NCBI GenBank assembly: GCA_028287785.1
Contig: JAQBOZ010000007.1
Location: 186,001 to 250,000, forward strand
Source of the DNA: Chlorobiota bacterium
GTDB taxonomy: Bacteria > Bacteroidota > Ignavibacteria > OLB7
DNA length: 64,000 nucleotides
Direction: 5' to 3'
Below are positions 2,934-34,605 of this stretch, piece by piece. The first letter of the stretch is position 1. The number at the start of each line of letters is the position of its first letter. The position numbers and the translations under genes are program-made. Below the pieces are notes generated by a model. The model was not told where the DNA came from. It saw only the letters and a list, made by a program, of their open reading frames with translations, and searched no databases.

Positions 2934-3824
2934 ATGGGTAAGAGCTTTGTGATCGATTCAACAGCAAGCGAAGGCACGGAGATTTCCGTGACTTCGCTTC
3001 CGCTCGATTCGTTGTACAGGCGGTGAAGATACTATTTGCGGCGAACATGACGCGGTGGACGCCGCGCGACACCTCAACACGATAGACAGATGCTATCGGC
3101 CGCGCGACGACCACAACGCCCGTCCGGCGTTGCGGAGGCGGGCGCCGGGAAACCATTCCCGTGGTTTCAATGATTTCCCGGCTTCGCCCCGCATTGCCGG
3201 AAGGATCGTGGGGATAAAGCAGCATCCTTTCACCTGCCACTCCATCCTGATCACAACCCCCGTTGCCGGATCACGATGTAGGGTTCGCATCGTCAATCCA
3301 TGCCGATCCCGTTGCCGGCATCCGATACCCGGCGCATCGGCATCAGAGGATATTCATCGGTATCCGCTCCATGTCCGTGAGCAATGCGGGCATGGATGTG
3401 TCATCAATCAATCAGGTCTCGGAAACGGCCTCCAGTAATTTTCAGGTAAGTATATCAGCCCGATCAACCAAATAAATCGAGTGATAATTACCGTCGATCA
3501 ACTGGGAATATCCGCTTCATGAGCCTAACCCATGACTTGCAAAAATGTTAGCGGAATATGGTGGCGGTGACAGGTAACAATTGCTGTTTCCGATATCATG
3601 GCAAAAAAATCGAAAGCCACTGGCCTTTATTACCAACGATATCACGATAAGATATTCACCACGTTGCGATCAATCATAAGAATATTTTTTTTCGCGGCAA
3701 TACGAAATTCAGGTCGACTTGAGCAGTCGCTGTTTCAACCGCATGAAAAGAAATATCAACAACGGCGATGAGCTTTATCCGCCCTCCGATCAGGAGAGCG
3801 GAATGCTCAAATCGGCAGCCGGCG
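2934..3824. other. Intergenic stretch with no convincing gene
   Basis: About 890 bases between the divergently placed start of the M20 gene and the end of the sugar transferase gene. Only short overlapping frames occur, with no recognisable protein and no start supported by context. The part from about 3470 to 3730 is visibly AT-richer than its surroundings. It must hold the promoter of the amidohydrolase operon, but I cannot point to a clear box. Confidence 0.5.
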
Positions 3825-12234: not shown

Positions 12235-13326
12235 TCAGCCAAACGCCGCCTCGTAGATGGCGGAGGGAATGCCGCGCATCGGCTCGCCGCGGATGATCGC
12301 GATCAGCATGGTCTGCATCACCAGCGGGATCTCCATGTTGGTTGTCTTCATCACGATATCGGCATGGAGGAGCGCCTCGAACGCATTACGCAGATGCGCC
12401 ATCGGATAGCGGGAAAGGGCGGCGATATATTCATTGAGGAAAAACGGGGAGATGCCGAGGCTCCTCGCCATCTCGTTCTGGTCCTTGGCGCGGGAGCGAA
12501 GCTCGATCAGACGCCAGAGAATGGTGAAGTAGCGGGTGAGCATCGTCAAAATCAACTGCGCGGGCTCGCCGGCGCGCAGCATCCGCTCGGCGATCTCGGC
12601 GGCCAGCTCCAGATTTTTCATGCCGACCGATTTCTGAAGCTCGAACACATTGAAGACTTTCGATGCCCCCACGATCGCCCGGACATCCTCCGCCGTGATC
12701 CGCTTCCGATCCTCGACGAAGGTGAAGAGCTTTTCAATCTCGTTGCTCAGCACGCGGAGCGACGCGCCGACATATCCCACGAACAATTCCACGGCATCCG
12801 GCGTGATCTCCTTTCCCCGCGCCTTGATCCGCGATGCCGTCCATGAGGGGATTTCCCGATCGTAGATTTTCTTGAATTGAACGGCCGCGGCGTGGTTGAC
12901 GATAAGATTATAGGGAGCCTTTGCTCCGGGACCGTTTTTTCCCTTCGTGAGAAAATCGGCGATGGCGGCGGTTATAATCAGAATTGTCGTCGGCGCGGGG
13001 GTGTTCATATATCTACCAAACGGGGAATTTTCCTCCGGTTTTCCCCGCAGCGCAAATGTCCTGTCGATCTCCCGCACCACCACCACGCGACGGTCCGCCA
13101 TCAGCGGATAGGCCATCGACCGTTCCACGATATCGTTGACCGATATCTCGCTGCCGTACATCAGATCGAAATTGAAGCTGCGGGTGCTTTCATCGACCGT
13201 TGCGGCCATGATCCGGTCAAGCGCCTCATCGATCAGAAATTCCTCCTCGCCGAACAGAAAATAGACGGGATCGAATTTCCCATGCTTCAGCGATGTTTCG
13301 AGACTATCCGGCGTGACAATCGGCAT
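12235..13326 (-). CDS. holA: DNA polymerase III delta subunit
   Basis: The 363-residue protein has the HolA layout. The N-terminal AAA-like domain starts PVYFLFGEEEFLIDEALDRI, with the characteristic YFLFGEE followed by RVVVVREID. The middle part reads VGASLRVLSNEIEKL (the family's L.NE.EKL motif), and the C-terminal domain contains LILTMLTRYFTILWRL. It is the clamp-loader wrench that opens the sliding clamp. It appears to be the first gene of the minus-strand run ending at 7737. The ATG is preceded by only weak ribosome-site signals. Confidence 0.93.
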   Translation of the reverse strand: MPIVTPDSLETSLKHGKFDPVYFLFGEEEFLIDEALDRIMAATVDESTRSFNFDLMYGSEISVNDIVERSMAYPLMADRRVVVVREIDRTFALRGKPEENSPFGRYMNTPAPTTILIITAAIADFLTKGKNGPGAKAPYNLIVNHAAAVQFKKIYDREIPSWTASRIKARGKEITPDAVELFVGYVGASLRVLSNEIEKLFTFVEDRKRITAEDVRAIVGASKVFNVFELQKSVGMKNLELAAEIAERMLRAGEPAQLILTMLTRYFTILWRLIELRSRAKDQNEMARSLGISPFFLNEYIAALSRYPMAHLRNAFEALLHADIVMKTTNMEIPLVMQTMLIAIIRGEPMRGIPSAIYEAAFG

Positions 13327-13419: not shown

Positions 13420-13456
13420 AACGGGCGGAGATTCACCCATGGAATCTCCGCCCGTT
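13420..13456 (-). terminator. Hairpin terminator of the AT-hook protein gene
   Basis: A perfect 15-bp inverted repeat (AACGGGCGGAGATTC and its complement) encloses a 7-base loop. It lies 55 bases after the stop of the AT-hook gene and before the holA start. The minus-strand flank (ATATTATGG) is AT-rich but has no T run, so termination strength is uncertain. Confidence 0.55.
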
Positions 13457-13510: not shown

Positions 13511-14956
13511 CTACTGCTGCGTCGGCTCGGCACCAGTTTCCCCGACCGCTGTTTCGGGGGTGTTCACCTGAGCGCCGTTCTGCTCCGATTTCCTGGGGCG
13601 ACCGCGGCGCTTGGCGCCGGTGGAAGCCTCGGTAGTCCCGGAAGCCTCGGTAGTACGCGCCGGACGACCGCGACGGCGTGGCGTTGCCTGCACCTCCGCC
13701 GCCGGAGCCTCGACATTCTTCCTTGGGCGACCGCGACGCTTGGCGCCGGTGCTTCCCTCGGTGGCTGCCGGAGCGCCTTCAGCGGCATTCTTCGGACGGC
13801 GACCGCGGCGCTTGGCGCCCGTGGACTCACCACCGGCATTGCCGGCTTCGGCATTCTTCGCCGGGCGACCACGACGCTTGGCCGATGACGGAGCAGCGGC
13901 GGCATCAGCGTTCTTCCGTGGACGACCACGACGGCCGGTAGCTGCCGGGGCCGAAGCGGAGACCGGTGCCTCTGCATTCTTCCTTGGACGACCACGACGA
14001 CCGGCAACAACCGGAGCGGCGGCCGGCGCCTCTGCGTTCTTCCGTGGACGGCCACGACGCTTTGCCGCGCCGGCTGGAGCCTCGGCGGCTCCGGCATTCT
14101 TCGCCGGACGACCACGACGGCGCGGTGCGGCCTGCTCGGCTACCGGCGCCTCTACATTTTTCCTCGGACGGCCACGACGCTTTGCTGCGCCGGCTGGAGC
14201 CTCGGCGGCGCCGGCATTCTTCGCCGGACGACCACGACGGCGCGGCGCGGCCTGCTCGGCTACCGGCGCCTCTGCATTTTTCCTTGGGCGACCACGACGC
14301 TTTGCGCCGACGGTTGCCTCAGTGGCGGCGGGAGCAGCGGCATTCTTTGCCGGGCGTCCACGACGCTTGGGAACCGCCACCTCGCCAACTGCCTCGGTCT
14401 TCCTTGGACGCCCACGGCGCTTTGCCGGCGCCGGCGTGGAATCCGCCTCGGTCGTTTCGGTCTTCCTTGGGCGACCACGACGCTTCGCCGATGTTCCTGC
14501 GGCTTTACCACGACCACGGCGGGCCGGAGCTGGGGACTCCTGTGCGTGGGCAATGGCGGCAAGGCCACGATTAACTTCGAAACCATTTGCCAGAGGGAGC
14601 GCGGCATGGAAAAGATCCATCATCCACCGCTCGGCATTACGCGCCATATCCTCCGAAATCAGCTCGACCACGCGGAAGCTCGCCGCGAAACCGCTGCTTG
14701 CCAGCCCCTGAATTTCCCTGGCTGCCCGGTTCTGCTGCCGCTTATCCATCGACTCGAGCATGGCCCCCGCCTGCAGCGGCATCCCGTTGGTTGAATAAAC
14801 CACGTAGAGATAATTCTGGGCACCTTCGAGGGGGAAAGCGGCGATTGGATGACTGGGGCTGACATTAACCTGCTCGAAGATAGCCCCTATCTGCGAGACA
14901 ATTTGCGAAGCGAATTCGCTCATCAACCGAGACCCACCTGAAGTAGTCGATGGCAT
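13511..14956 (-). CDS. Repetitive AT-hook-like DNA-binding protein
   Basis: This 481-residue protein has a globular N-terminal domain (about residues 12-140) that I do not recognise. A long tail of 15 repeats of KRRGRPRKN, RRRGRPAKN or close variants follows, spaced about 18-24 residues apart by Ala/Glu/Pro/Gly linkers. GRPRK is the AT-hook core that binds the minor groove of AT-rich DNA; one repeat reads GRRPKN. The tail is strongly basic and should be disordered. AGGAG seven bases before the ATG at 14956 supports this start over Met12. Similar tails occur in nucleoid-associated and histone-H1-like proteins, so an architectural role is plausible but inferred. Confidence 0.85.
   Translation of the reverse strand: MPSTTSGGSRLMSEFASQIVSQIGAIFEQVNVSPSHPIAAFPLEGAQNYLYVVYSTNGMPLQAGAMLESMDKRQQNRAAREIQGLASSGFAASFRVVELISEDMARNAERWMMDLFHAALPLANGFEVNRGLAAIAHAQESPAPARRGRGKAAGTSAKRRGRPRKTETTEADSTPAPAKRRGRPRKTEAVGEVAVPKRRGRPAKNAAAPAATEATVGAKRRGRPRKNAEAPVAEQAAPRRRGRPAKNAGAAEAPAGAAKRRGRPRKNVEAPVAEQAAPRRRGRPAKNAGAAEAPAGAAKRRGRPRKNAEAPAAAPVVAGRRGRPRKNAEAPVSASAPAATGRRGRPRKNADAAAAPSSAKRRGRPAKNAEAGNAGGESTGAKRRGRRPKNAAEGAPAATEGSTGAKRRGRPRKNVEAPAAEVQATPRRRGRPARTTEASGTTEASTGAKRRGRPRKSEQNGAQVNTPETAVGETGAEPTQQ
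14062..14301 (-). repeat. Tandem 120-bp duplication inside the AT-hook gene
   Basis: Two almost identical 40-codon units lie head to tail. Each encodes one KRRGRPRKN hook, a linker AEAPVAEQAAP (VEAP in the second), one RRRGRPAKN hook, and AGAAEAPAGAA. The nucleotide match is close enough to show a recent duplication rather than convergence. Limits are approximate to a few bases. Confidence 0.7.
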
Positions 14957-17345
14957 TTGAAGCTCCTGGTATGTTTACTGATCCGCCTAGAAGAAATTCA
15001 CAGGCCTTAAATAACTTCCTAATATATAAAGAGAATGCGACTTTCTATCGCCGGAACTCGCCATCCGCAACAATTACTCAAACCATGCGCCAATTTATTG
15101 CGCCATGGACATCCGCGCCGGTGATGGTTATTTGTCGACGCCGTGATCAGGGTATTTCATCGAAAGCATTGCGGTCGGATCGGCCATGTATTACTTATAT
15201 CGTCCGCATCGGCTGGGGAATTATCCGGTTGTGGATGATCATGTCGGAGCAGTTTGCCCGCTGGAAGAGCGCAATTTCGGAGTGTTTGAACCATGTTTTC
15301 ATCGGCACCACTCATTCCATTCCCGGCACGCTCGAAGGGAATATCGTTTCTCCCGCCGACATCATTTTCGCGACGCAATTCTCCCCGAAGCCGCGCAAAT
15401 ACCGAATTCACCGCGCCAGTGCATTGCCCTCAATATCCACGATGGAAGCGTTAGTGTCCCGATCCCGGATCGATCGGGACATCAATATCACTGCACCGGA
15501 TATCACATCATTGCAGGGTCAGAGATCGACGTTGGCTTTATCGAGACATTCGCGCCCGCCGTTTGACAGCCCACATTCAGGAAGAATCTCTACGTAGCCC
15601 CCGGACATGGTCAATGATATTACGATGCCCGGGTGGAGAGGCGCGGCGGGAAGGATTTTCGGGAATCCTCATGACGATATTACCAGCGGATGGTATCAAG
15701 TTGTGGTGCACGCGTTCATATCCGTTCAGCACAACCCAATCGGACGAAATCGGAACAACGGCCGGCTTCCCGGCTTCTCAAGGTGAGAGCGGCACCCATG
15801 GGAATAATCGCCACGCCGGATATTCCGCGTGGAGCAGATGCCCGGCGTGCGCGACAGGCAGCCCGCGAATCGCCGTCGCGCCGGAAGCCCCGGATATCAC
15901 GGGCCGGCGTGGAATCCATGCGTGACGGCTTTTGCGGGGCTGCAATGATCCGGAAGGTTATTCGAACAGCGTTATTCACCCGCCCGCCGCGCAAAGCCCG
16001 ATGCGATGAAATGGGCATCGAATGCAATGACAACCGACGAAATCAGATGCTCCATTTTGCCCGTATATGCCGATCGCGATAATTCAACCCCACCGACTCA
16101 GCCTGGTTATGGACGATCCAGCAATCAAAATCCACCAATGCATTCTCCCGACATTCCCGTTGCATGCGATAACCGGATGATATGGGATTTCCCTTCCATC
16201 GTTTTCCATCGCATCACACAGCACCGGCAATCACAGCAATCAAATGCGACGCGCGTTCAATGTAATGGAGATTGACGCGGGAGAGGAATATGACAACCGA
16301 TATCGACGGAAATCCCGAACCCAATGAATACAGCGATCGGTTTGAACGTGCTCGCGATGGCCGCCCACGGGGAGTATGGTTTGCATCCCATGTATCATGG
16401 GTCTTCCGATAATCACGATTCAATCCGGGCATCGAAGTCCTCCCGAAGCGAAGTTCGAAGTTCAGGTGGTCATCGACTTTTACCGTGTGTGATGGAATGA
16501 TTTTGATCCACGAATGGCGACATGATCAACACCCGCATCCGTCATCGAAGAAATTTCACAAATGGTAACAGGGATGTGATGTGGCGGCACGCTTGAACAC
16601 GATGCAACCGGATCGTGTTGAACATTCGGCGAGCGACGGGATATTGCTCAATCCAACCCGACGGAAATTGATGTCTGTTATCGGGATCGCTTCGCTTTTT
16701 CGGTTTATCATCCCATGATGGGAATGATATGTCATCACAACACATGCAATCCTGCATCTCCTCGTTATCTCACATTTGCGTTCGCACAGTGCAGGCCGGT
16801 GCTGAAAAATCGTGCGATGTCCCATCGAGTATGGATGATTTTGGAGGGGAGCATTATCGGCCGGTGCCATCATTTTCCGGCATCGCCACCATGCCGGCGT
16901 CCGGCGGCATATCCAGTGAAGGGATGATGTATTGTGCGGCGGGGTCAATCCATTACATCGGAAATTTCCCGGAGATCGGGCGACGGAATTTCCCCGTGAT
17001 TACCGGCCGTCCGTTGCATCACGGACATGCCGCCATCCCACAATGGTGCGGATAGGCGACGGCGATTGGGCGCGACAGGCTTTATGACCGTCCCGGAAGA
17101 AGAGTGGGAATCGGCGTACCGTCGGGCCCGCTGCTCCGTGCCCGAACTGCCGGCCTGGGAACAGTTCATCCGGGCGCTCGTCCATACAATCGCACCGGGG
17201 ACAATTCGTCATGGGGAGATGATTCAGGGCATCTGTTCATGGTCCCGCATGATTGGATCGTCGGGGAGCCCGAAGGAATATCAACGCCTGCAATCGAGAA
17301 ATCTTCTTCTCCCAAAAAGGGCGTAACTTTCCCCATCGATCTCGT
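14957..17345. other. 2.4-kb stretch without a convincing gene
   Basis: Frames here are short or read as low-quality protein on both strands; none has a start with ribosome-site support or a recognisable motif. The DNA is not simple sequence and holds many short palindromes of the GATATC and GGAATATTCC kind. I see no tRNA, rRNA, CRISPR or transposase fragment. It separates two oppositely transcribed genes, the AT-hook gene and the small T9SS-tail gene, so both promoters are at its edges. Confidence 0.5.
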
Positions 17346-17353
17346 TATATTTG
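17346..17353 (+). promoter_or_regulatory. Candidate TAnnTTTG -7 box
   Basis: TATATTTG fits the Bacteroidetes -7 consensus exactly and lies 37 bases before the ATG of the small T9SS-tail protein, with a GGAG ribosome site at 17381-17384 in between. No clear -33 TTTG is present at the usual spacing. Confidence 0.4.
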
Positions 17354-17390
17354 GAGTGTGCCTAATCAGTATTGTGATACGGAGTACCTT

Positions 17391-29995: not shown

Positions 29996-30001
29996 GGCAG
30001 A

Positions 30002-30066
30002 CCGTTGAAGGACCTGCGGCGTTGGCCTTCAACGGTCGCTCATTGCGGCGTCCTCCCGGACGCCGC
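30002..30066 (+). terminator. Two hairpins after the ftsY transcript
   Basis: CCGTTGAAGG/CCTTCAACGG (30002-30035) and GCGGCGTCC/GGACGCCGC (30045-30066) are stable stems directly after the stop codon at 29995. Neither has a long T run. They probably end the ftsY transcript or protect its 3' end. Confidence 0.5.
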
Positions 30067-30328
30067 ACCCGCTCAGGTTCGGCCGCCTTGCAGCTGATCG
30101 TCCTTGAACAGTCTGCGGGTTCGGAGTACGCCGAAAGCACCAGCCGCTGTATTCTTCTTCAAGCCCGCGTAATATTCCTGCGCGAAGCATCGCCCCGCGC
30201 AAGCGCACACCCTGAGGATTCGGTGTGACAAATCATGCCGACGATAATAAAGCTTGCCTTCCGGGGATGGTCTGCGTATGTTTGTAGCCCGCTTCGATAC
30301 AACGGCAACGTAATCTGAAGCGTCACAT
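30067..30328. other. Intergenic region upstream of the tRNA
   Basis: About 260 bases with no gene. It should contain the tRNA promoter; I cannot point to one with confidence. Confidence 0.3.
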
Positions 30329-30401
<73 letters not shown>

Positions 30402-30404
30402 CTC

Positions 30405-30441
30405 AAAACGCCGATTCTATATCAGAATCGGCGTTTTTCGT
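30405..30441 (+). terminator. Replacement terminator carried by the island
   Basis: AAAACGCCGATTCT and its complement form a 14-bp stem with a short ATATC-type loop, and TTTTT is part of the 3' arm. It lies right behind the tRNA 3' end and thus ends the tRNA transcript, while the tRNA's probable original terminator now lies at 33694-33730. Confidence 0.8.
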
Positions 30442-30588
30442 TATTGGGAACAAGAACGAGGCATTAGCAAGCAGCATTATCATATCTGTAGGGTAAACGG
30501 AGACGTCCCGTTCTCCCTAGAATGCCCTATTACTTCTTGATTAGCTTCAAAGAGTAGATTTAAACTAGCTACTTAAGCGTAAGCGTTT

Positions 30589-30658
30589 CCCTATCTTCGC
30601 CGTTCCAACCTATACAGATTCCCCCGATAGGGCTTCCCTGGTCACTTACACCCTATCG
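30589..30658. promoter_or_regulatory. Three CCCTATC boxes upstream of the R-M genes
   Basis: CCCTATC at 30589-30595, its complement GATAGGG at 30626-30632, and CCCTATC again at 30651-30657 are spaced by about one to three helical turns. They are all within 105 bases of the first R-M start codon. Such arrays can be regulator operators in restriction systems, but no controller gene is present. Confidence 0.3.
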
Positions 30659-30689
30659 TACACCTTCAAACGACTTCTATCCAGTCACA

Positions 30690-32549
30690 ATGGCAAAAAA
30701 ACGTCACTCTGAGTTCCGAGCTTACATATGGATCGAAGCACAACTAAAGCTCAGAGACTGGAACACGGATAATCCGAATAGTACCCCTTTAGGCGAGGTA
30801 TGGACACAAGGAGAGTGTCTTGCCGATCCCGAGATCAAAAAGGCATTGGGTCAGGCGCGGCCAGAGAACGTTGTTAAAGTCGATAGTTCCACCTTCTGGG
30901 TAATCGAAGCTAAAGAGGGTAAGGATAGCATTAATAAGGCGACTCAAGAAGCACAGGAGTATGCCGAGACTATCAACCACACTTCGAATATTGTTTCCGC
31001 TCCGCTCGCCACTGGCGTAGCTGGCAATCTGAGCCATGGTTACGAAGTACAGACCTTCATTCGATTGAATGGAGCTTGGAGACGTGTAACCGTTGGGGCT
31101 TTTCCACTGACACGTTTCCTCTCAAAGGAGGAGGCTCGTAGACTGATCGCAGGGAACACATCAAGCCTTACCCGCCCTGAACTGACAGTAAACGAGGTCA
31201 CTCAGCTCTCGATCCAAATCAATGAATCTCTGCATAAAGCCAAAGTCGAGAAAGAACGTCGAGCTTTGATTGTGGCTTTTTTGCTGTTGGCTTTGAAGGA
31301 GGATCCCACCTTGACGCTGAAAGGTGACCCCGAAATTTTCATTAGCGACATCAACGCACGGGCAGAACGTGTTTTCAAATCCAGTGGAAAGGCTGATCTA
31401 TGGAAGAGCGTCGCCATTCATACGGCGTCTGATAAAGCTGCGGATGTAGCAGGCGCTTTGAGCCGAATCATCACGCTCTTAAAGGATGCTGACATTCTTC
31501 ATGCTGTAGCTACAACTGACATTCTCGGTAGCTTTTTTGAGAGCTTCTTGCGGTATGGAAATACGAGTAAGGATCTGGGAATTGTATTCACCCCACGTCA
31601 CATTTGCTGGCTTGGTGCAGAGATCCTTGCCATAAGCCCATCGGATATTTTGTTCGACCTAGCAGCTGGAACTGGAGGGTTCCTTATAGCCGCCTTTAAT
31701 AGGCTTCGTGAAACCCTACCTATCCAAGAGGCTGGGGAGTTCGCTGCAAAGAATCTTTTCGGAGTTGAAGCTTCTGAACGTGTCGCTGCGCTTACGTTTG
31801 TCAACATGTATTTCCGAGGAGATGGGAAACATAATCTGAAGACAGATTCCTGCTTTAACTGGAATCTTGTTCAGGTATCGCATGGAAAATCGGAGTTTCA
31901 AAATACTTTAGGTTCTAATATCACCACTACGCCAGGTGCAACTAAGATCCTCATGAACCCGCCGTTTGCATTACGCGATACTGACGAAGTAGAATCGCGA
32001 TTTGTAGATCATGCCCTGGCACAGCTGCAAGATCGTGCCTTGCTTTTCGCCGTACTACCTACTTCCGTCATGTACGAGCGTAGCGATCGAGATTGGAGGC
32101 AACGCTTACTCGCTTCTAATACACTAGTGGCTGTAATGCTGTTTCCAACCGACCTGTTTTACCCCGTGTCAACGGAAACGCTTGCTATAGTGGTAAGGAA
32201 GGGCATACCGCATAATATGCAGACTGATGTTCTTTGGGCAAGAATAGGAGACGATGGCTTTATTAAGCGCAAAGGATTCCGAGTAGAAAAGAGCGGGGTT
32301 GGATATAAGAAGATATTGGAGCCTGTGAAGAACATTCTATCATCTTGGATTGCCTTAGGAGTAAAGGGCGCTCCATTACAGGGCGAATATGAGTTTGCGA
32401 CCATTCGCTCAGATGAGCTAATACCTCAGGCACATCTGGGAACGCCTCAGTTAAACCAAACCCAATATTTGCGTGAAGCTAGGCGGGTTTTCCGAGAGGT
32501 AACGACACAGCTATGGGATCAACTGGAAGAAACAGGAGGGGGACTCTAA
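30690..32549 (+). CDS. Restriction-modification fusion: N-terminal nuclease plus N6-adenine DNA methylase
   Basis: This 619-residue protein has, near its N-terminus, VVKVDSSTFWVIEAKEGKDS, a PD-(D/E)xK-like pattern with Asp65 and Glu73-x-Lys75. A helical linker follows, and then a gamma-type amino-methyltransferase: IVFTPRHICWL (about 299-308), motif I FDLAAGTGGFL (322-332), GVEASER, and catalytic motif IV NPPF (423-426). The layout matches single-chain R-M subunits such as BcgI-A (type IIB/IIG), which cleave and methylate with a separate specificity subunit. The following gene overlaps the stop (TAATG) and encodes that subunit. If Glu73/Lys75 are not catalytic, this is a methylase only. Confidence 0.8.
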   Translation: MAKKRHSEFRAYIWIEAQLKLRDWNTDNPNSTPLGEVWTQGECLADPEIKKALGQARPENVVKVDSSTFWVIEAKEGKDSINKATQEAQEYAETINHTSNIVSAPLATGVAGNLSHGYEVQTFIRLNGAWRRVTVGAFPLTRFLSKEEARRLIAGNTSSLTRPELTVNEVTQLSIQINESLHKAKVEKERRALIVAFLLLALKEDPTLTLKGDPEIFISDINARAERVFKSSGKADLWKSVAIHTASDKAADVAGALSRIITLLKDADILHAVATTDILGSFFESFLRYGNTSKDLGIVFTPRHICWLGAEILAISPSDILFDLAAGTGGFLIAAFNRLRETLPIQEAGEFAAKNLFGVEASERVAALTFVNMYFRGDGKHNLKTDSCFNWNLVQVSHGKSEFQNTLGSNITTTPGATKILMNPPFALRDTDEVESRFVDHALAQLQDRALLFAVLPTSVMYERSDRDWRQRLLASNTLVAVMLFPTDLFYPVSTETLAIVVRKGIPHNMQTDVLWARIGDDGFIKRKGFRVEKSGVGYKKILEPVKNILSSWIALGVKGAPLQGEYEFATIRSDELIPQAHLGTPQLNQTQYLREARRVFREVTTQLWDQLEETGGGL

Positions 32550-33043
32550 TGGAAACGCATATGAAGCCACTGAAAGAACTATTCACCTTTGATGCTGCTC
32601 GATCAAATGGGGTTAGCGACTATGCACCTGGCCCCATACCCTTTGTGACAAGCAAGGAGCAGAACAACGGGGTCGTGTCGTACATTACTCCGGAGGAAGA
32701 AGATCGCGTTTTTGTGGGACCAGCAATTGCAATCTCAGGACTTGGATATGCTTCTATCCACACTGGATCGTTTTTACCAAAAGGTAATGGTGGCGACTCT
32801 TTAACTATACTGACTCCAAAGCAACCCATGATTGTGGAGCAATTGATAGGAGTAGTGGCCGCGTTTAATACACTACACAAGTGGCGGTTCAGTTTTGGCA
32901 GGAAGTGTAACATTACCCGTTTAGAGGATTTGGAAATCCCTATAGATCCACCAACAGTACTCGACGAATGGAGTAATGAAAAGCAGCGGATCCAGGATAT
33001 TATTGCCAATGTCGAGAGCAAATTAAGTCACAGAGATACCTGA
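32549..33043 (+). CDS. Half-length specificity (HsdS-like) subunit with one target-recognition domain
   Basis: The protein of 164 residues starts at the ATG that overlaps the methylase stop (TAATG). GGAGGGGG precedes it. It is about half of a usual HsdS or BcgI-B subunit. Its body resembles one target-recognition domain (VTSKEQNNGVVSYITPEEE, GPAIAISGLGYASIHTGSF) followed by a short helical conserved region (EWSNEKQRIQDIIANV). Half-S subunits are known to work as dimers and read symmetrical bipartite sites. It may be intact, because it ends cleanly; alternatively it is the N-terminal half of a longer S gene cut by the adjacent IS remnant. Confidence 0.7.
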   Translation: METHMKPLKELFTFDAARSNGVSDYAPGPIPFVTSKEQNNGVVSYITPEEEDRVFVGPAIAISGLGYASIHTGSFLPKGNGGDSLTILTPKQPMIVEQLIGVVAAFNTLHKWRFSFGRKCNITRLEDLEIPIDPPTVLDEWSNEKQRIQDIIANVESKLSHRDT

Positions 33044-33115
33044 GGATTCTACTTTGAGCATGCTATGTGTTTTCGCAAACCTTATGAAGTTCCCCCGCTT
33101 TGGTAGAGCGATGAG

Positions 33116-33543
33116 TTAAGTGTCAGCAGCATGCTGACGTTCACATTGGTCGGGGCTCAGATAGCCCAATGTCGAGTGCCGGCGCTCGCGATTGTAGAAG
33201 CGTTCGATGTACTCGAAGATGCTCGCACGAGCCTCCGACCGGCTGCGATACTGCTGGCGATAGACCAGCGCCACCCTCAATGTGCAATGTCACGAATTGT
33301 CCCAGTGCCCTCGCGGCTCATGCTTGGGATCATCCTCCAGTCACTGAGCATCTGCCGGAACGCTGTCGCACAGTACTGGCTCCCGCGATCGGAGTGATGC
33401 ACCACGCTGACTCGGTGGCATCGACCGCCGAGTCAGCGTGGTGCGCGGCACACTACCCAATTGACGTGCTTGCCTGATTCATTGCTCAGACGGGCTGCTC
33501 CCTGTTGGAACTCCTTGGTAAATACTCTGCGTTGTTCTGCCAT
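33116..33543 (-). pseudogene. IS3-family transposase remnant
   Basis: The minus strand keeps the start of orfA (33433-33543: MAEQRRVFTKEFQQGAARLS, then a stop after 36 codons). After a break it keeps parts of orfB: VVHHSDRGSQYC, then WRMIPSMSRE, then after a frameshift GHWDNS with a stop, and the C-terminal EYIERFYNRERRHSTLGYLS ending at 33116. The DDE core before HHSDRG is lost, so it cannot transpose. A perfect 16-bp inverted repeat (33400-33415 and 33428-33443) sits at the orfA/orfB junction. I could not identify the IS ends. Confidence 0.85.
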
Positions 33544-33667
33544 GTCGATCTCCCTGGGACCTAAAATAGCCCCTTATCCGGTACTCTACCGAATCGAGGA
33601 AGGTTCAAACCGATTTCGAGCAAAACGAATGGTTTTACCAGATGTAGTGCACCCTTTAAAACTGCTC

Positions 33668-33690
33668 GGTTCAAGTCCTGTCCCCGCTAC
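33668..33690 (+). repeat. Right attachment-site repeat (attR), 23 bp
   Basis: Exact second copy of the tRNA-fMet 3' end at 30380-30402. The flanking base on each side differs. It marks the right border of the island and was originally the real tRNA 3' end or its duplicate. Confidence 0.85.
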
Positions 33691-33693
33691 AAA

Positions 33694-33730
33694 AGAAAAG
33701 GCCTGAGTTGAACGACTCGGGCCTTTTGCG
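33694..33730 (+). terminator. Probable original tRNA-fMet terminator, now displaced
   Basis: AAAAGGCCTGAGT and its complement ACTCGGGCCTTTT form an imperfect stem with a TGAACG-type loop, followed by GCGTTT. It lies immediately after the right repeat, where the terminator of the uninterrupted tRNA gene would be. Confidence 0.6.
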
Positions 33731-33765
33731 TTTCCCCCTGATCCCACCAATTTCCGTCCAGCGCC

Positions 33766-34605
33766 ATGCGTCTTCAGACGATGCCGTACGATGCCTCACA
33801 GCTTGCCTTCATTCGAACCGGATCGGGCCCTCCCGTGGTGATGATCCACGGCAATCCCGCCACGCACACGCTCTGGCGACCGCTGGCGGAACGGCTGGCG
33901 GCGGCGCGCACCGTCTACGCCATCAACCTCCCCGGATTCGGCGGCAGCCCCGCCCCCGCAACGGCGGATCAGTATACTCTCCGGTCGCTGGCGCGGCTGG
34001 TGCTGGAGTTCGGAACGATTCAGGGGTTTGAACGGTTCGATCTGATCGGGCACTCCTTCGGCGGGGCGATCTCCATCACGATGGCCGATCTCTTCCCCGA
34101 TTCGGTCAGATCACTGGTGGCGATCACGCCGATGACCGATAGAATCCCGATGCTCGCGCGGCTGGCCCGCGTCGCGCCGCTGGAATGGATGGCCGGGACG
34201 CTCTGGAATGCGGCTCCGTCGCGGCTGCGAAGGGAGTTCGCGGGCCGGTGGGCGCACGTGAGCTACGGGAAGGGATATTCGCCGGGAAGGGCGGCCGAGG
34301 TCGCGATGGAGGCGGACAGGAAAGGCCTGGTGCGGGCGCTCTGCGGGCTGGTACGGGAAACCGACTATGGCTCCTATGGCGAAACGCTCGGCAGGCTCGG
34401 CGCGGCCCACCGTCAGCCGGTGCTGCTGGTGGGAGCTGGCGAGGACAGCATCATCCCGGCATCGCATTTCGAGCACCTGTGTGGGCGATTCCCGAGGGCC
34501 GAACGCCATATCTTCCCTGAAAGCGGGCATGTCCCGATGTGGCAGCATCCCGATGACCTTGCCCCCCTGATCCGTCGCTTCTGGGAAAAGGCCGGGCCGG
34601 TCTGA
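33766..34605 (+). CDS. Alpha/beta hydrolase
   Basis: The 279-residue protein has the alpha/beta hydrolase fold. VVMIHGNPATHTLW forms the oxyanion region, GHSFGGAIS carries the nucleophile Ser, and GHVPMWQHP carries the catalytic His near the C-terminus. VGAGEDSIIPASH should hold the acid. It has no signal peptide, so it works in the cytoplasm, perhaps as an esterase, lipase or C-C hydrolase; the substrate is not evident. The start could be Met1 (33766) or Met6; no clear ribosome site decides. A GT2 gene follows 41 bases later on the same strand. Confidence 0.88.
   Translation: MRLQTMPYDASQLAFIRTGSGPPVVMIHGNPATHTLWRPLAERLAAARTVYAINLPGFGGSPAPATADQYTLRSLARLVLEFGTIQGFERFDLIGHSFGGAISITMADLFPDSVRSLVAITPMTDRIPMLARLARVAPLEWMAGTLWNAAPSRLRREFAGRWAHVSYGKGYSPGRAAEVAMEADRKGLVRALCGLVRETDYGSYGETLGRLGAAHRQPVLLVGAGEDSIIPASHFEHLCGRFPRAERHIFPESGHVPMWQHPDDLAPLIRRFWEKAGPV

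Follow-up and report, generated by a model that had tools for sequence, protein, structure and literature searches.

The window analysed here, a 64-kb stretch of a genome of 4.75 Mb (G000; 37 contigs, 95% complete), carries beside holA a gene for a protein with a long series of AT-hooks, referred to below as the hook protein. The features of the locus are as follows.

12235..13326, (-) strand: holA (DNA polymerase III delta), the conserved downstream neighbour, separated from the hook gene by a hairpin
13420..13456, (-) strand: strong terminator-like hairpin in the gap from the hook gene to holA (z -6.0), with equivalents in three relatives
13511..14956, (-) strand: gene of the multi-AT-hook protein (481 aa, ATG start)
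13589..14485, (-) strand: array of 15 AT-hooks (residues 158-456), spaced by 18-24 aa, with Ala/Pro/Glu-rich linkers
14023..14262, (-) strand: tandem 120-bp duplication within the array, two copies, 112/120 identical
14588..14938, (-) strand: head domain (residues 7-123), helix-strand-strand-helix-strand-helix, with a GIY-YIG-like predicted fold and catalytic positions that are not conserved
14957..15156, no strand assigned: AT-rich region upstream of the hook gene, with four A/T runs of at least 6; putative self-binding site

The AT-hook array

All 15 hooks have RGRP or RGRRPK as their core and follow each other at 18-24 residues, preceded by one degenerate RRGRGK. This count of cores, together with the Pfam AT_hook model (PF02178; 55.6 bits, with the cut-off at 17.4, and 11 stretches of the protein marked), confirms the 15 hooks in one chain that the initial annotation had reported, while its description of them as GRPRK/GRPAK-type fits 13 of the 15 (nine RGRPRK and four RGRPAK) and not the single RGRPAR and RGRRPK. 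AT_hook was also the only family found when the whole protein was scanned against Pfam at E<=1. The tail has a net charge of +54 and the head of about 0. The AT_hook model was uninformative as a query against the own genome, being with its 13 positions too short: it returned 0 matches, missing the hook gene itself, and recovered 0 of 14 controls.

The copies of the duplication, at 14023-14142 and 14143-14262, are identical at 112 of 120 positions, which marks the duplication as a fairly recent event. The duplication previously described is therefore real, whereas the accompanying claim that the array is still growing by it is not demonstrable from a single genome.

On the opposite strand, a 366-aa open frame (13611-14711, (+) strand) runs antisense to the array and contains GRPRR repeats as well. 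Such a frame is a by-product of hook codons read from the opposite strand, has a 273-aa counterpart in the relative L009, and is probably an artefact.

Hooks were also seen on a different protein in the same genus. In genome G001 (L032:267-5028, contig C71), a Septu-like PtuA ATPase of defence (PADLOC E 1.6e-183 over residues 56-484), with PtuB and PglZ next to it, has three RGRPRK hooks in its C-terminal end, beyond the PtuA model. That the hook array was recently transferred into this ptuA was considered and rejected, the DNA being only 66% alike over 146 bases.

Distribution of the hook protein

A query with the head identified a single copy in each of four of the five genomes of the order, and a profile of the four homologues recovered the same four genomes, and no others, among 391 sampled from the class. 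When the contigs were searched, the single sequence gave no locus and the four-homologue alignment gave three, L009 (a 'Bacteroidetes' MAG), L010 (an 'Armatimonadetes'-labelled MAG) and L011 (a 'Chlorobiota' MAG). In a sample of 395 genomes from the phylum, which like the class sample is a partial selection of its group, the profile matched the own genome and G396/L013, and the latter (E 1e-4) was excluded from the counts since its frames lie antisense to an apparent repetitive gene. At E<=1e-5, the hook tail matched the own genome alone among the 395; by sequence, a long array under selection (see below) on a separately folded head is very rare in the phylum. Viral contigs and plasmids searched for relatives of the hook protein yielded none. 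A search for the same head without hooks, which had been proposed as a check, found none, all four homologues having hooks (15 in the window, 12 in L009, 5 in L010 and 8 in L011). The best reading of this distribution is that the hook protein is lineage-restricted.

Selection on the hooks and their number in relation to GC content

Hooks were compared among themselves inside each protein, over seven codons per hook. The values of pN and pS were 0.10 and 0.50 in the window (n=15), 0.00 and 0.58 in L009 (n=12), 0.00 and 0.16 in L010 (n=5), and 0.09 and 0.26 in L011 (n=8). For the linkers, an ungapped and therefore rough comparison gave a pN of 0.43-0.45 in the window and L009, and 0.00 and 0.13 in L010 and L011, where the repeats are more alike and the values little informative. 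On these comparisons, changes in hook codons are almost all silent, so that purifying selection on the hook cores is strong, and the linkers are drifting. Since the hook peptide is kept while its DNA varies, the tail appears to work as hooks rather than being a by-product of repeat slippage.

The host had been described as GC-rich, which at 59.6% GC in the window holds in a moderate and not an extreme sense. With GC values taken from the window and the fetched loci, there are 0 hooks at 48% GC, 5 and 8 at 54-55%, and 12 and 15 at 60%. These data are suggestive of a hook number that tracks GC content, in a comparison of five genomes in three genera that is confounded with ancestry.

Gene neighbourhood

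The hook gene adjoins holA on the same strand in all four genomes and is flanked on its other side by a sorting-domain gene and a heptosyltransferase gene, again in all four. A hairpin occupies the gap between the hook gene and holA in each genome (RNA fold z of -6.0, -6.5, -5.3 and -4.6), indicating that the hook gene and holA are probably transcribed separately, and we infer that the hairpin acts as terminator of the hook gene. In genome G002, the fifth of the order, with 48.3% GC at the locus, the flanking genes including holA are kept and the hook gene is absent. An operon with holA was considered as the main clue to function and rejected on account of the hairpins in four of four gaps and of this locus without the hook gene. 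Because the whole neighbourhood is conserved, adjacency to holA is weak evidence. In the same G002 region (L031, C32:14000-27000), the heptosyltransferase gene is missing together with the hook gene from a neighbourhood that is otherwise conserved.

The region upstream of the hook gene

In the 200 bp that precede the hook gene, the four genomes have 4, 5, 6 and 6 A/T runs of at least 6, numbers reached by 1.7%, 0.5%, 0.5% and 0.9% of the 200-bp windows of the same sequence, the first value being the share among those of the 64-kb window. Such a region fits self-binding and also an ordinary promoter, promoters being AT-rich in general and the comparison having been made with all 200-bp windows. 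It is the only AT-rich target that the sequence suggests for the hook protein; nothing observed links the protein to origins or foreign DNA, the marking of which, put forward in the initial annotation, is a possible role.

Between the hook gene and the divergently oriented gene upstream of it lies an intergenic stretch (14957-17360) of about 2.4 kb, compared with 627-748 bp in the three relatives. Its sequence is unique within its genome, and the five ORFs scanned in it had no Pfam match. Elsewhere in the window, Rfam identified one tRNA and nothing else, and the lowest GC contents are found at 30001-34000, beside a tRNA-Met gene, and at 3350-3800 (200-bp minima of 0.41-0.45); these two stretches are possible acquired islands.

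Predicted fold of the head domain

The N-terminal domain had been called unrecognised, which is true of sequence families, with no match in Pfam, NCBIfam or PDB sequences, but not of predicted structure. AlphaFold, applied as the initial annotation had proposed, gave a folded domain both for the head of the window protein (mean pLDDT 69.4, pTM 0.61) and for that of L010 (mean pLDDT 72.9, pTM 0.62), the two heads being about 28-30% identical. The order of elements is helix, strand, strand, helix, strand, helix in both models, which are not independent because the same shallow alignment of four sequences underlies both. In the comparison with PDB folds, the first ten rows were GIY-YIG folds for the window head (Z 6.0-6.4; first unrelated row 5.4) as well as for the L010 head (Z 5.4-6.3; first unrelated row 4.3), the best value of 6.4 lying below 8, a range in which Z can reflect a common arrangement. 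These first ten rows comprise UvrC, R.Eco29kI and the N-domain of a plant glutaredoxin; nine are GIY-YIG by title, and the glutaredoxin domain (2lwf) is presumably of the same fold. Foldseek returned probabilities of up to 1.00 and no E-value below 0.001, and in a viral structure library 10 of the 50 matches listed, including rank 1, were GIY-YIG by name, with low TM-scores and again no E-value below 0.001. A Roadblock/LC7-like head, suggested by the order of helices and strands, was also considered; no Roadblock entry was prominent among the fold matches listed, which is an absence and not an exclusion. Taken as predictions, these modest matches point to a head that resembles the GIY-YIG nuclease fold.

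Sequence comparison gave weak support for this fold. When the head profile was compared with 12 small GIY-YIG proteins from related genomes, hand-picked from 30 extracted fragments, it reached a score of 19.0 across residues 49-65, which form the two-strand motif. With 30 sequences of GIY-YIG proteins and UvrC combined, the score was 16.1, and the aligned residues 48-112 fell in the expected register; in either case 1 of 200 column shuffles scored as high, and 35 decoy profiles built from neighbouring genes all stayed below 16.1. The probabilities assigned by HHalign itself were low (5.3% and 1.5%), the 18 UvrC sequences alone gave no signal (186 of 200 shuffles at least equal), and PF01541 was not listed in a Pfam scan at E<=10.

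Catalysis by GIY-YIG enzymes depends on the two tyrosines of the motif, an arginine and a glutamate. In the register of the profile alignment, and in the order window, L009, L010 and L011, the corresponding residues are Y/Y/F/F at Tyr51, Q/R/T/T at the YIG tyrosine (position 62), R/R/E/A at the arginine (position 73) and E/S/H/Y at the glutamate (position 109). Since these four positions are not conserved, we do not place the family among the GIY-YIG nucleases, and the head most likely does not cut DNA. Three of the four residues (Tyr51, Arg73 and Glu109) are present together in the window copy only, so that in this species loss of activity is no more than probable and a small chance of activity is left. 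Overall, the modelled head is probably a nuclease-fold domain that is inactive.

Discussion

With modest confidence, we regard the hook protein as a DNA-architectural protein, whose mode of action would resemble that of HMGA or of the C-terminal half of CarD in Myxococcus and whose GIY-YIG-like head probably does not cut. The flexible linkers, about 12 residues long, between the fifteen hooks would enable one molecule to span or cross-link several AT tracts, and the folded head predicted here may contact DNA or bind a partner. The gene would form its own transcription unit beside holA, if the hairpin observed in the gap terminates transcription, and it may be autoregulated via its AT-rich promoter. 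Two HU/IHF-family genes are found in each of the five genomes; a general packaging role is therefore not obviously needed, and the hook protein would add to the ordinary nucleoid proteins and not replace them.

A more far-reaching version, which we put forward as a tentative and rather doubtful proposal, is that a GIY-YIG nuclease fold lost its catalytic site and was recruited as the head domain of a chromatin-like protein in bacteria. The AT-hook tail of this protein would have lengthened as the lineage gained GC, and the outcome would be a sensor or organiser of AT-rich DNA that is specific to the lineage.

Alternatively, the hook protein could be a xenogeneic silencer that coats and represses AT-rich DNA acquired by a genome of 60% GC, as H-NS, Lsr2, MvaT and Rok do, with a head that oligomerises. 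The rise of hook number with genome GC among the relatives and the richness of the own promoter in A/T runs in all four genomes speak for such a role. However, the former is a trend over five genomes of three genera confounded with ancestry, Pfam (AT_hook alone) and NCBIfam gave no match to the H-NS, Lsr2, MvaT or Rok families, and the fold searches indicated no known oligomerisation domain; we consider a silencer unlikely.

It is very improbable that the basic tail tethers an inclusion body, for example of polyphosphate or polyhydroxybutyrate, to the nucleoid, a role reported or proposed for AlgP. A basic, disordered C-terminal repeat tail is the general plan of AlgP in the available part of its description (PMC9239181), and genes for acetyl-CoA acetyltransferase and 3-hydroxybutyryl-CoA dehydrogenase lie downstream of the hook gene. 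However, the tail consists of arginine-containing GRP hooks and not of lysine-rich KPAA repeats, the downstream genes belong to general metabolism, and the thiolase gene is kept in G002, which lacks the hook gene.

Very improbable, in our view, is a live AT-hook-guided GIY-YIG nuclease, whose head would cut or nick the DNA held by the tail in the manner of a modular homing or restriction enzyme. The predicted fold and the Tyr51, Arg73 and Glu109 placed in the window copy by the profile alignment would suit such an enzyme, but these three positions and that of the YIG tyrosine vary across the four homologues, and no restriction partner was found among the neighbouring genes scanned. Least probable of all is an accessory factor of replication or of the clamp loader, for which holA is adjacent on the same strand in four of four genomes, but from which a strong hairpin separates the hook gene in every one, and holA is retained in G002 without it.

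Several points give the hook protein wider interest. Long AT-hook arrays in bacterial proteins have been little studied, and we know of no established silencer of AT-rich DNA on the Bacteroidota-Chlorobiota side. Should the head be a disarmed nuclease, it would exemplify a DNA-cutting fold put to a new use in organising DNA. With hook numbers that range from 5 to 15, the four syntenic orthologues constitute a natural series for relating hook number to genome GC.

Comparison with known systems

The portions of the literature available on bacterial AT-hook proteins, on GIY-YIG domains with AT-hooks, on inactive GIY-YIG domains and on histone-H1-like tails contained no description of the hook protein. 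As far as the accessible text of PMC4374960 goes, Myxococcus CarD likewise joins a structured N-terminal domain to a C-terminal tail that is disordered, contains RGRP hooks and binds the AT-rich minor groove, but has four hooks and an N-terminal domain that binds RNA polymerase, in contrast to the 15 hooks and the GIY-YIG-like head found here. No CarD_CdnL_TRCF N-terminal domain was found in the hook protein with Pfam (E<=1) or NCBIfam. HMGA and other eukaryotic AT-hook proteins share the repeated, linker-joined GRP core with basic flanks, but at most five hooks are named for them (in MLL2) in the sections of PMC11354804 drawn upon, compared to 15 and a folded head in this bacterial protein.

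A basic DNA-binding repeat tail is likewise present in chlamydial Hc2 (HctB) and Pseudomonas AlgP, whose repeats are, in the extracts used, lysine-rich and histone-H1-like instead of GRP hooks (PMC2848022, PMC9239181); the tail of Hc2 is described there as varying in length through repeat duplication and loss (PMC2848022). With the GIY-YIG superfamily (the UvrC N-domain and R.Eco29kI), the head has in common the predicted strand-strand-helix-strand-helix core, in a rough profile register, and it differs in its non-conserved catalytic residues, its extra N-terminal helix and its fusion to AT-hooks. By its sequence, the hook protein is a member of the AT-hook-containing proteins only, and the element that is new among them is its predicted head, a disarmed nuclease if the models hold.
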